Origin: Candidatus Kuenenia stuttgartensis
Lineage (GTDB): Bacteria; Planctomycetota; Planctomycetia; Planctomycetales; Planctomycetaceae
DNA: 57,960 nt
NCBI GenBank assembly: GCA_945861465.1
Contig: CAMAVB010000010.1
Span: 1-57,960, forward strand
Direction: 5' to 3'
Part shown: one piece after another, positions 30,211-39,612 of the stretch
Layout of the letters: every line of letters begins with the position of its first letter
How positions within the stretch are numbered: the first letter of the stretch is position 1
Program-made: the position numbers and the translations under genes
The notes under the pieces: model-generated
Database searches by the model: none
What the model was told of the DNA's origin: nothing
Seen by the model: only the letters and a program-made list of their open reading frames with translations

Positions 30211-30288
30211 TGTTCAGTATTCAGTTTTCAGTTTTCAGTGAATCGCATGGTTTGACTTTGCTGAACACTGCAGTCCCAAAACTGAAGA
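30211..30288. repeat. TTCAG-type inverted repeat, copy 1
   Basis: The left arm (30211-30240) consists of TGTTCAGTATTCAG and TTTTCAG units and starts on the base after the DeoR stop. The right arm (about 30261-30288) contains CTGAACACTG and AAAACTGAAG. The loop begins AATCGCA, a word shared with other copies. It fills most of the spacer to pduL. Confidence 0.7.
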
Positions 30289-31078: not shown

Positions 31079-31163
31079 CAGTGTTCAGTTTTCGGTGTTC
31101 CGCAATCGCAGGCAACACACTGAAAACTGAAAACTGAAAACTGAAAACTGAAAACTGAAAACT
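31079..31163. repeat. TTCAG-type inverted repeat, copy 2
   Basis: Begins on the base after the pduL stop. The left arm is 31079-31100, the loop 31101-31116 (CGCAATCGCAGGCAAC), and the right arm 31117-31163 is six tandem CTGAAAA heptads. The expanded heptad array suggests slippage growth of the arm. Confidence 0.85.
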
Positions 31164-33205: not shown

Positions 33206-33338
33206 GTGTTCAGTTTTCAGTGTTCAGTGTTCAGTGTTCAGTTTTCAGTAAAGGAGCTTTTGGCGTTCGTGCTTGCAGTCTTCATAGAACCCGCATTTCT
33301 GCGATTCACTGAACACTGAACACTGAAAACTGAAAACT
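33206..33338. repeat. TTCAG-type inverted repeat, copy 3 (long)
   Basis: Begins on the base after the ackA stop. The left arm 33206-33249 has about six TTCAGTG/TTTTCAG units. The right arm 33307-33338 is CACTGAACACTGAACACTGA followed by CTGAAAACT units. The 57-base loop ends TCTGCGATT, echoing the AATCGCA word of other copies in the opposite orientation. It fills the spacer up to 14 bases from the BMC-P start. Confidence 0.9.
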
Positions 33339-34402: not shown

Positions 34403-35869
34403 ATGTCGCGAGACAGAGAGATGCAAATCGTGCAGGCAACAGCAAACGAACAGACAATTCGGAACATCGTGCAGGAAGTCCTGACGCAATTGACGACCCG
34501 CAACGGCTCGGCTGCGAGAGTCAATGGCTCATCCGGTCCCGATACTCGATGGGGCGTCTTTAACACCGTCGATGAAGCCGTCGAAGCTGCTACGAAGGGT
34601 TTTGAAAAACTCAGTCGTGCGTCCCTCGACGATCGAAAGTCGGCAATCAACATCGTAAAGCAGATTTGCGATGAACAGGCGGAAGAACTCGGCCGACTTG
34701 AGTTCGAAGAAACAAAGATTGGCCGTCTCGAACACAAGATTGCCAAACTCAAGGCGATCAAGGGTGTGCCCGGTGTCGAGTTCCTGAAGACCGAAGCGAT
34801 CAGCGGTTCACATGGTTTGATGATTACCGAGTACGCTCCCTTCGGCGTCATTGGTGCGATCACTCCTGTGACGCATTCTCTGCCGACTCTCGCGGGCAAC
34901 TTTGTCAACATGGTCGCTGCCGGAAACACAATCGTCTGCAACCCGCACCCCAGCGGTGCGAAGATCGCCAGTGAAGGTGTGCGACGTTTCAACAAAGCCA
35001 TTTTCGCTGCGACCGGGCTCGAAAACCTCGTCAACATCATCGGCACTCCGACGATCGAATCGGCGCAGGCCGTGTTTGATCATCGCGGTGTCAAGTTGCT
35101 CGTGGTGACCGGCGGGCCGGCAGTGGCGCGAGCCGCTCTGCAGAGTCCCAAGCGAGCCATCGTGGCTGGTCCTGGGAATCCTCCGGTAGTTGTCGATGCC
35201 ACGGCTGATATCGACAACGCAGCCAAGTCTATCGTCGCCGGGGCGGCCTTCGACAACAGTTTGCTGTGTATCAGCGAAAAGGAAGTCTTCGCGGTCAAAG
35301 AAATCTTCGATTCCCTGATGACGGCCGTTTCGAATCACGGCGGCTATCGGCTCAACGCAGCTCAGGTTGCAGCGTTCACTGCCAAAGCGTTTGGGCCACC
35401 GAAAGAACCGGGCGGGCATCATGTGCTGAACCGGGATTACATCGGAAAAGATGCGGCGTGGCTGGCAGCTCAGATTGGACTGAACATTCCATCCAGCACA
35501 TTGATTCTGTACGGTGAAACGGACGAGTTCAACCCGTTCGTCTCAGAAGAGCAGATGATGCCGTTCATCCCTTTCGTCCGCACCAACTGCAGCGACCACG
35601 CAATTGCTCTGGCAAAGAAATACGAGCACGGCTTCGGCCACACCGCGATCATCCATTCTCGCGACGTCCATACGATCACAAAGATGGGTCGCGTGATGAA
35701 CACAACATTGTTCGTGAAGAACGGTCCCTGCATGGCGGGGCTGGGACTTGGCGGCGAAGGCTATCTGTCGTTCAGCATCGCAACCCCCACCGGCGAAGGC
35801 GTGACGAGTCCCATGACGTTCACTCGCCAGCGACGCTGCGTGATGGTGGATGATTTGAGGATTATTTAA
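34403..35869 (+). CDS. CoA-acylating aldehyde dehydrogenase of the microcompartment
   Basis: 488 residues, PduP/EutE type. The N-terminal helix [16 protein letters not shown] (about 15-30) followed by a linker is an encapsulation peptide. The ALDH core has [20 protein letters not shown], the Rossmann region, [13 protein letters not shown] and the catalytic cysteine in [13 protein letters not shown]. Here C lies where CoA-acylating enzymes have it, and no general-base Glu motif for hydrolysis is seen. It oxidises the aldehyde (probably lactaldehyde) to acyl-CoA with NAD+. ATG 34403 and 34421 are both possible; both ribosome sites are weak. TTCAG repeats begin directly after its stop. Confidence 0.93.
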
Positions 35870-35972
35870 GAGTTTTCAGTGTTCAGTTTTCAGTAAATCG
35901 CAGTTTCACAAAGAGCCATAATCTTAGGCCATGCTTTTCGTTTCTGAACATGAACACTTTTGACTGAAAACT
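35870..35972. repeat. TTCAG-type inverted repeat, copy 4 (upstream of the four-helix ORF)
   Basis: Starts on the base after the aldehyde dehydrogenase stop. The left arm 35871-35895 is GTTTTCAGTGTTCAGTTTTC plus AGTA, followed by AATCGCAG. The right arm is about 35944-35972 (CTGAACATGAACACTTTTGA then CTGAAAACT). It ends 6 bases before the ATG of the four-helix-bundle ORF. Confidence 0.85.
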
Positions 35973-35978
35973 TTCCTT

Positions 35979-36344
35979 ATGGCCTTTCAGTCGTTTGAGG
36001 ATTTAGAAGTTTGGAAAAGGGCGTGCAATTTGGCGGTATTCACGTACGAGTCCTTGCGTGAATCGCGAGATTTTGCACTTCGAGATCAAATGCAACGGGC
36101 CTCCGTGTCAATTGCATCAAATATCGCGGAGGGCTCAGAAAGATCTGAGAAGGAGTTTCTTCGATTTCTTTCAATTGCTCGCGGATCTTCATCTGAACTG
36201 AGGACTCAAGCTTACATCGCGTTCAGGATTAACACGATTGATAAACCACAAATGAACCACATTGTCGATGAAGCCAGGCAAATCAATCGAATGTTGATTG
36301 GACTCTCTCAGTCAATTCAGAAAAGACTGAGAACTGAACACTGA
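35979..36344 (+). CDS. Four-helix-bundle protein (23S rRNA intervening-sequence protein family)
   Basis: 121 residues: FEDLEVWKRACNLAVFTYES, ALRDQMQRASVSIASNIAEG, SERSEKEFLRFLSIARGSSS and a last helix. This is the S23/IVP family (TIGR02436-type) also related to Avd of diversity-generating retroelements. In spirochaetes and Coxiella such ORFs sit in the loop of 23S rRNA intervening sequences. Here the gene is set in a BMC operon, between TTCAG arms. Its last residues (RLRTEH and the stop) are encoded by the repeat itself. No reverse transcriptase is nearby. Likely nucleic-acid-binding, pentamer-forming by analogy to Avd; role unknown. Confidence 0.9.
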   Translation: MAFQSFEDLEVWKRACNLAVFTYESLRESRDFALRDQMQRASVSIASNIAEGSERSEKEFLRFLSIARGSSSELRTQAYIAFRINTIDKPQMNHIVDEARQINRMLIGLSQSIQKRLRTEH

Positions 36345-36384
36345 AAACTGAACACTGAAAACTGAACACTGAAAACTGAAAACT
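36326..36384. repeat. TTCAG-type right-arm array, copy 5 (downstream of the four-helix ORF)
   Basis: Only the complementary type of unit is present: ACTGAGAACTGAACACTGAA and repeated CTGAACACTGAAAA. It overlaps the 3' end of the four-helix ORF and stops 5 bases before the next ATG. It can pair with the left arm at 35871-35895, putting the whole ORF in the loop of a roughly 515-base stem-loop. Confidence 0.85.
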
Positions 36385-36389
36385 CCCGT

Positions 36390-36677
36390 ATGCAAACCGC
36401 CCGAGTCATCGGCCATGCCACAGCAACACTCAAGCATTCATCGCTGAACGGATGGAAGCTCATCGTGTTACAGCCGCTGGACATAAACAACGAACCGGAT
36501 GAATTCCCTCAGATCGCCATCGACCCGCTGGGCGCTCGGCAGGGAGATCATGTTTTTTTTACAAGTGATACGAAATACATCCAGGAACTGACGGGCCGCA
36601 AGGATTCACCCATCCGGTTTTCGGTGCAGGGAATTCTGGATGAACAACCAGAGCCTGTGAAGAAACGCAGGAAATGA
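36390..36677 (+). CDS. Microcompartment vertex protein, BMC-P, copy 2
   Basis: 95 residues, EutN/CcmL fold: QTARVIGHATATLKHSSLNG, KLIVLQPLDINNEPDE, QGDHVFFTSDTKYIQ and a final SPIRFSVQGILDE. The C-terminal EPVKKRRK tail is strongly basic. No Shine-Dalgarno is present: the bases before the ATG are the end of the repeat plus CCCGT. Confidence 0.9.
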   Translation: MQTARVIGHATATLKHSSLNGWKLIVLQPLDINNEPDEFPQIAIDPLGARQGDHVFFTSDTKYIQELTGRKDSPIRFSVQGILDEQPEPVKKRRK

Positions 36678-36682
36678 CAATT

Positions 36683-36757
36683 GTAGAGTGGGACCAGCGA
36701 AGCGCAGGCCCACCGGATTCATCATGGTGGGCCGGCACTTCGCTGGTCCCACCTTAC
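36683..36757. repeat. MITE-like inverted repeat, GTAGGGTGGGAC family, full copy
   Basis: The left arm 36683-36714 and right arm 36726-36757 are reverse complements at about 28 of 32 positions, with an 11-base loop. It begins 5 bases after the BMC-P stop. The same family occurs at 7105-7182 and as a half copy at 31963-31994. An in-frame ORF start at 36674 would read through it, which argues for the downstream start of the next gene. Confidence 0.85.
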
Positions 36758-36769
36758 ACGAAACACTCT

Positions 36770-37743: not shown

Positions 37744-37825
37744 GTGTTCAGTGTTCAGTTTTCAGTGTTCAGAAAGCACAGGAACCTGCGACTTACTGAA
37801 CACTGAAAACTGAACACTGAGAACT
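37744..37825. repeat. TTCAG-type inverted repeat, copy 6
   Basis: The left arm 37744-37772 (GTGTTCAGTGTTCAGTTTTC plus AGTGTTCAG), loop with GGAACCTGCGACTT, and right arm 37795-37825 form a strong hairpin. It is followed by eight T (TTTTTTTTA), so this copy would work as an intrinsic terminator or attenuator before the aldolase gene. Confidence 0.9.
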
Positions 37826-39571: not shown

Positions 39572-39589
39572 CGCTGCCGAATTCCCTTT

Positions 39590-39612
39590 CTGAAAACTGA
39601 AAACTGAAAACT
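39590..39612. repeat. TTCAG-type right-arm array, copy 7
   Basis: Three tandem CTGAAAA units (CTGAAAACTGAAAACTGAAA then ACT), with no left arm nearby. It ends 10 bases before the dehydrogenase start. It is possibly the remnant right arm of an element whose left part was replaced by the DUF4058 insertion. Confidence 0.75.

Follow-up and report, generated by a model that had tools for sequence, protein, structure and literature searches.

Gene content and arms of the element

The DNA analysed here (the window, 57,960 nucleotides) is contig C10 of an 8.2-Mb genome in 474 contigs, referred to below as the own genome (G000). Between a gene of the aldehyde dehydrogenase family (AldDH) and a gene for an EutN/CcmL shell protein it carries an ORF of 121 codons that is enclosed by two arrays of tandem heptamers in mirrored orientation (Table 1). 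ORFs in its neighbourhood gave matches to aldehyde dehydrogenase, EutN and aldolase, in agreement with the microcompartment operon that an initial annotation, made from the sequence alone, had named as the host. The ORF matched the PF05635 profile (23S_rRNA_IVP) far above its cut-off of 33.8 bits and the TIGR02436 profile ("four helix bundle protein") with 102 bits (cut-off 24), and no Pfam family besides PF05635 was matched at E 0.001. It is called the window IVP in the following.

The initial annotation had further placed the ORF between a TTCAG left arm and a CTGAA array and had its last residues and stop codon written in the repeat, and both statements were borne out. The left arm is complementary at 24 of 24 positions to the right array in two registers (36340-36363 and 36354-36377), the heptamer unit of both arms is ACTGAAA/ACTGAAC, and the terminal codons and the TGA of the ORF fall inside the right-arm repeat. 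A degenerate CTGAA copy between the left arm and the ORF had gone unmentioned. The whole element folds at -165.6 kcal/mol with its arms paired.

The pattern CTGAANACTGAA was matched 39 times in the window with at most one mismatch (mean 0.96 and maximum 4 in 100 shuffles). In the own genome the 24-nt arm had 82 matches with three mismatches allowed, against 0 for the reversed pattern, and PF05635 had seven matches above the cut-off and one below. Searches of phage records and with PADLOC gave no match. The next intergenic gap of the operon (36682-36758) holds a second, unrelated inverted repeat of the GTGGGACCAGCGAAG type with 33-nt arms that are 88% complementary.

Table 1. Coordinates of the element, its host genes and the ORF-less arrays of the same heptamer in the window.
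Feature	Position	Strand	Remarks
ORF-less pair with poor right arm	30212-30272		4 units minus; one plus match with 1 mismatch at 30261-30272
ORF-less inverted pair, heptamer of the window IVP	31083-31160		2 units minus, then 6 plus
ORF-less inverted pair, same heptamer as the window IVP arms	33208-33335		6 units minus, then 4 plus
Upstream host gene, aldehyde dehydrogenase family	34403-35869	+	PF00171; NF011927, 596 bits
Left (upstream) arm	35871-35894	-	AGTTTTC AGTGTTC AGTTTTC AGT (three heptamers + AGT); an identical 24-mer ends the full element of G428 (another family)
Degenerate inner CTGAA copy upstream of the ORF	35951-35972	+	77% complementary to the left arm
IVP ORF, 121 aa, four-helix bundle (PF05635)	35979-36344	+	110.2 bits; AlphaFold2 pLDDT 96.8; Foldseek
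Right (downstream) arm, 8 ACTGAAM heptamers	36326-36384	+	array complementary to the left arm
Downstream host gene, EutN/CcmL shell protein	36390-36677	+	PF03319, 78.9 bits
ORF-less inverted pair, heptamer of the window IVP	37746-37822		4 units minus, then 4 plus
Partnerless single right-arm array	39589-39609	+	3 units plus

Fold of the IVP protein

The AlphaFold2 model of the window IVP is a four-helix bundle like the structures 2gsc and 2rld, which were its best Foldseek matches; 2gsc is XCC0516, an IVP of Xanthomonas campestris. They were followed by the Avd entries 4dwl and 8ub7 (TM 0.69-0.77 for the top chains), and matches of this type include Avd within the reverse-transcriptase complex of a diversity-generating retroelement (DGR). 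The window IVP thus has its fold in common with the Avd accessory protein of these retroelements, despite an identity of 11-13%. A likeness of IVPs to Avd is also stated in the available text of PMC10053308. The solved relatives have five chains per entry, and catalytic activity is not apparent in the IVP protein. A divergent IVP-like protein at locus L008 (30 bits, below the cut-off) has a longer ORF, a C-terminus resembling a zinc ribbon and arms with a period of 9 bases.

Inverted arms at IVP loci

For the comparison of IVP loci the 350-nt flanks upstream and downstream of the IVP domain were matched as inverted repeats, and the score of the own flanks was set against that of flanks swapped between loci. 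Loci with less than 200 nt on one side were dropped (1 of 77 from the own genome and its relatives, 6 of 80 from other genomes, 6 of 157 in the combined set). For the 76 loci of the own genome and its relatives the median score was 17 with own and 9 with swapped arms (direct-orientation control: 9), and 54 of the 76 exceeded the 99th percentile of the swapped scores. The 74 scored loci from named genomes elsewhere had medians of 15 and 8, respectively, with 47 above the 99th percentile. A strong inverted repeat (score of at least 14) was present at 104 of 151 IVP loci, absent from the remaining 47, and found in none of 147 control windows with identical geometry that were placed 600 nt or more from the IVP; these counts are of loci and not of independent events, because some loci are orthologous (e.g. 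L005, L061 and L065). In a further set of 24 loci of the phylum Planctomycetota and 4 loci on cyanobacterial plasmids, 25 could be scored and 22 of these reached at least 14, the swapped 99th percentile being 21 there because several loci share one unit.

The loci come from Planctomycete relatives and, judging by record titles, about a dozen other phyla, including Pseudomonadota, Verrucomicrobiota, Bacteroidota, Bacillota and Acidobacteriota. Many groups of bacteria thus have this layout, in which a single IVP gene is set between mirrored repeats that match, often accompanied by repeat copies without the gene at other places. The treatment of ORF and arms as one unit in the initial annotation is upheld, since IVP ORFs are in general flanked by arms, and those orthologous sites without the ORF that were examined have either no arms or a remnant of them. 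Relative to the ORF the arms also have a fixed polarity: by GC skew the upstream side has G over C in 122 loci and the reverse in 16, and the downstream side has C over G in 118 loci and the reverse in 17. Co-direction with the neighbouring genes, which would be expected if the ORF were expressed from host transcripts, was seen for both neighbours at 64 of 104 loci, while both were opposed at 9.

One IVP clade (L056, L057, L058 and L060) lies, by inspection of the sequence, directly 3' of tRNA-like genes. Clear flanking inverted arms were not seen at L057, L058 and L060, the last apparently having a hairpin between the tRNA-like gene and the ORF.

Repeat unit and protein clade

The arms are periodic. 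In the 56 loci of relatives with an inverted repeat the self-identity of the arms was 0.44 at a lag of 7, 0.41 at 14 and 0.38 at 21, against 0.26-0.29 at the remaining lags from 2 to 13 and 0.26-0.31 at those up to 30. A clear unit period was assigned to 136 of 183 IVPs, namely 7 in 104, 8 in 16, 9 in 11 and 6 in 5. On a tree of the 183 IVPs, in which the 47 without a clear period were unlabelled and from which L008 and L112 were left out, unit length required 14 changes, compared with a mean of 30.9 after shuffling (0 of 200 shuffles as low), a clustering that is aided by near relatives. Period 6 forms one supported clade. Period 9 is accounted for by 2 changes, and period 8, with 11, is only partly clustered. 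A clade with 9-bp units, mainly of family f49 (L215, L220-L225, L229, L230 and L232), has units such as GTTTAAACG.

Although arm sequence differs among loci, the two arms of a locus match each other. Among 115 pairs of one Planctomycete-relative and one other-genome IVP with at least 50% protein identity, the mean repeat cosine was 0.129 versus 0.046 (0 of 5000 permutations), and it averaged 0.38 in the 10 pairs with at least 60% identity. Over all pairs the rank correlation between protein and repeat similarity was weak (equalled or exceeded in 57 of 1000 permutations for pairs between groups and in 2 of 1000 for those within the second group), the signal being concentrated in close pairs. 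The unit length (6-9) and, among close IVPs, the unit sequence therefore follow the protein clade, even across phyla. The IVP of a Neisseriaceae genome (L128), for instance, is 61% identical to the window IVP and has TTCAG arms; all TTCAG matches of that genome lie at the IVP or no more than about 2 kb away. The IVP of G020 is 66% identical to that of the window but has TTAAG units. IVP ORFs in relatives that consistently lack TTCAG arms had been named beforehand as evidence against the element; this criterion has to be rephrased, for other IVPs do have heptamer arms, usually not TTCAG, and the sequence is clade-specific. That TTCAG arms belong to all IVPs was rejected, most IVPs having other units.

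ORF-less copies

In the own genome 20 regions around array matches were inspected, 7 of which contained a close pair, and the window adds three ORF-less pairs and the IVP copy. All 11 of these pairs run TTCAG first and CTGAA second; one weak pair of opposite order, about 400 nt apart, was seen at L244, and the reversed-sequence control gave 0 arrays. The same order was found in 4 of 5 regions examined in G428, a complete genome of genus g32. In Pseudoxanthomonas wuyuanensis an IVP (L193) is enclosed by GGGGACC arms and situated between genes that resemble carA and carB. This genome has at least 179 overlapping array matches, compared with 3 for the control, and 11 regions picked as close pairs among the matches listed all run from G-rich to C-rich. 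As in the IVP copy, each arm of these pairs mostly comprises four units; their loops differ and are mostly unlike the ORF.

ORF-less copies that carry the ends of a full copy in the same genome, as in MITE-like families, were thus found in the own genome, G428 and Pseudoxanthomonas. The suggestion that the empty hairpins of the operon are ORF-less derivatives of a full copy is supported in outline by the dispersed same-unit inverted pairs of these three genomes; since the Pseudoxanthomonas loops are mostly unlike the ORF, deletion of full copies is not the sole origin.

Turnover at orthologous sites

The initial annotation had called for a comparison of orthologous loci, and this gave a mixed picture, with sites free of the element at some and an arm remnant, decayed ORFs or an inverted element at others. 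The AldDH-EutN junction was readable in 17 of 18 genomes of the same genus, and an IVP was present only in that of the window. The junctions of G017 and G005 have TTCAG arms without an ORF, G014 has degenerate arms, and the other 13 have 8-129 nt without TTCAG arms, so that arms occur in 4 of 17. In G018, of another genus, the same junction holds a different IVP (42% identity) with TTGAGAG arms. An origin of the G017 hairpin by a deletion involving the inner CTGAA copy is disfavoured, because the outer array is the better fit to the right arm of that hairpin (20 versus 12).

The intact element of G428 has perfect ends of 31 bp that contain the 24-mer of the window. At its orthologous site G057 has an inverted element with two stops in the ORF, G049 an arm remnant only and G383 no TTCAG arm; by eye no target-site duplication was seen at the G428/G049/G383 site. 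At the L007 site an IVP is present in G000, G004, G012, G014, G015 and G002 (with a stop in G002) and is internally deleted in G017, whereas G011, G016 and G006 have neither IVP nor arms. The arms of this site are of two sequence types in which left and right change together (scores of 7-10 across and 10-23 within types).

Among 53 IVPs in 12 genomes there were no near-identical copies within one genome (highest within-genome identity 0.84), and no recent transposition was seen. Given this near-absence of recent IVP duplicates, any movement would be rare or would involve mainly gene-less copies or interspecies transfer.

Distribution of arrays and IVPs across genomes

The exact 19-nt TTCAG array occurs in 18 of the 59 relatives, which belong to 4 of 38 genera, and in 10 of 392 genomes of the phylum. 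Arrays at three or more places occurred in genera g1, g6 and g32, and among the IVP loci fetched the window-clade IVPs with TTCAG-type arms were found in the same three genera (G000, G013, G022, G057 and G428). AGT-type arrays (at least 2 matches) were present in 26 of 39 genomes with an IVP and in 4 of 20 without (p 0.0009); the reversed-pattern control is not clean, as it reads TGA every 7 bases, which heptamer arrays contain too, and therefore only the comparison between genomes was used.

An abundance of TTCAG hairpins in genomes without any IVP ORF, likewise named beforehand as counting against the element, was encountered in part: G010 has 190 exact TTCAG matches and 955 AGT-type matches and G049 has 8 exact TTCAG matches, neither with a PF05635 match. 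Arrays hence need no resident IVP, and the proposition that they occur only where one resides was rejected. The arrays inspected in G010 (L286 and L287) are single-sided and mix several heptamers, and five regions examined in G006 and G010 yielded no short inverted pair. In G006 (contig C77; L289, 2009-3333) opposed TTCAG arrays directly flank an ORF of 1.25 kb, by its size not an IVP, which may be a captured gene.

Two alternatives bear on this distribution. Heptamer hairpins could arise first and be homogenised by slippage and recombination between arms, with IVP ORFs merely settling in them. The arrays of G010 and G049, the ORF-less TTCAG hairpins at the AldDH-EutN junction of G017 and G005 and the inversion in G057, which fits recombination between arms, agree with such an order of events. 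It is nevertheless quite unlikely, as repeat units correspond to IVP clades even in different phyla, the L007 site is devoid of arms in the IVP-free G011, G016 and G006, and the Neisseriaceae arrays are confined to the vicinity of the IVP. The IVP could also be a post-transcriptional regulator that binds heptamer hairpins in many mRNAs and is autoregulated by the arms around its own ORF; protein and unit match by clade, the arrays are located in intergenic gaps of operons, and a translational role has been proposed for the TAACTGA heptamers of Beggiatoaceae (PMC4679880, available text). We regard such a function as improbable in view of the patchy presence of arrays within a genus at the AldDH-EutN junction and their persistence in genomes without an IVP.

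Comparison with 23S rRNA intervening sequences

IVP genes have been known chiefly as part of insertions in rRNA genes, the intervening sequences of 23S rRNA (23S IVS). In the available text of PMC4990558, tandem heptamers of variable copy number (GACAGAT) are described directly before the IVP ORF of the Coxiella burnetii 23S IVS, whose stem is cut in vitro by recombinant RNase III. The function of IVPs and the origin of 23S IVS are called unclear there, a mobile origin having been proposed before. This was the sole report of heptamers adjoining an IVP ORF found by a search with preprints and most subscription journals outside its range. The element of the window resembles the Coxiella 23S IVS, as far as that text describes it, in its PF05635 protein, in an ORF lying in the loop of an inverted repeat, in tandem heptamers and in ORF decay, and its fully complementary ends likewise form a long stem. 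It differs in its host, the AldDH/EutN protein operon, and in its many ORF-less copies in the genome, and because the insertion site differs it is not a 23S IVS.

The initial annotation had drawn on this likeness to suggest excision at the RNA level. In an explanation of this kind the arms would pair in the transcript, RNase III would cut out the loop and the ORF would ride along neutrally. The protein family, stem-loop layout and heptamers common to the Coxiella 23S IVS with its RNase III-sensitive stem (PMC4990558, in part), the co-direction of most ORFs with their neighbours (64 versus 9) and the stable fold of the window element accord with this suggestion. A stem kept for pairing in the sense transcript should, however, favour G.U mismatches, and across 132 loci (L042, L058, L112, L005 and L061 left out) arm mismatches of the sense-RNA G.U type numbered 167 versus 223 of the opposite type (p 0.005). 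Selection for an RNA stem is therefore not supported, since the sense strand has no G.U excess but rather the reverse; ends whose similarity is maintained at the DNA level, through recognition or recombination, agree better with the data. As, in addition, none of the 80 IVP loci from other genomes overlapped rRNA (Rfam) and the element is inverted at the orthologous site in G057, excision as RNA finds no support, and an RNA-level passenger is unlikely.

A proposed mobile element and related repeat families

We consider it probable that the feature in the window represents a single copy of a small selfish DNA element, termed the IVP element below, whose Avd-like protein would recognise its own arms. 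Such an element would consist of an IVP ORF without obvious signals of its own, enclosed by inverted tandem arms of 6-9-bp units with the upstream side G-rich, the arms being its presumed ends. The ORF would be expressed by the transcript of the host operon. On the basis of the DNA-level ends, the co-direction with neighbouring genes and the fold common to 2gsc, 2rld and Avd, we propose that the IVP protein recognises the arms and that the element spreads with a host enzyme. The protein would most likely bind the arm unit of its own clade as folded DNA or RNA, and the enzyme, which the analogy with Avd suggests may be a reverse transcriptase, would help the element to establish itself in intergenic gaps near stop codons. 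The ORF-less inverted pairs would be non-autonomous copies with the ends of the IVP element.

A wider reading, to which we give somewhat less than even credence, is that IVPs are transposase-less mobile elements throughout the bacteria, in which a pentameric Avd-like protein reads arms of clade-set 6-, 7-, 8- or 9-bp units and drives gene-less copies. The 23S IVS would then be a special landing site, and the heptamers of Xanthomonas, Cyanobacteria and Beggiatoaceae would be, at least partly, gene-less progeny. A repeat code that follows the protein clade would make the thirty-year-old puzzle of IVPs and 23S IVS testable as questions of binding and mobility, and it suggests a shared source for several published families of heptamer repeats that lack an explanation.

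In RAYT/REP/BIME systems the repeats on either side of a single protein gene have matching copies, without the gene, dispersed elsewhere, and repeat and protein co-vary by clade. The IVP element shares this logic in its gene between repeats, its dispersed gene-less copies and its co-variation by clade. RAYT, however, is a Y1 HUH transposase acting with a single REP palindrome, in contrast to the four-helix bundle and tandem 6-9-mer arms of the IVP element, and the window ORF matches only PF05635 in Pfam.

Dispersed intergenic GGGAATC heptamers have been described in Xanthomonas, with 70 inverted pairs in X. campestris and a preference for four units that was read as G-quadruplex formation (Rehm 2015, PMC4692102, available text). 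They resemble the IVP arms in being dispersed intergenic heptamers with inverted pairs and a four-unit preference; their explanation by G-quadruplexes in that text differs from the IVP-element reading given here, and the terms S23, XCC0516 and four helix are absent from its main text. For the TAACTGA repeats of Beggiatoaceae no link to IVPs is reported in the available text of PMC4679880 (0 matches to "23S", "intervening" and "four helix"). As described there, these heptamers are dispersed over intergenic sites, have a sequence close to that of the TTCAG unit and, unlike the inverted IVP arms, are mostly direct repeats.
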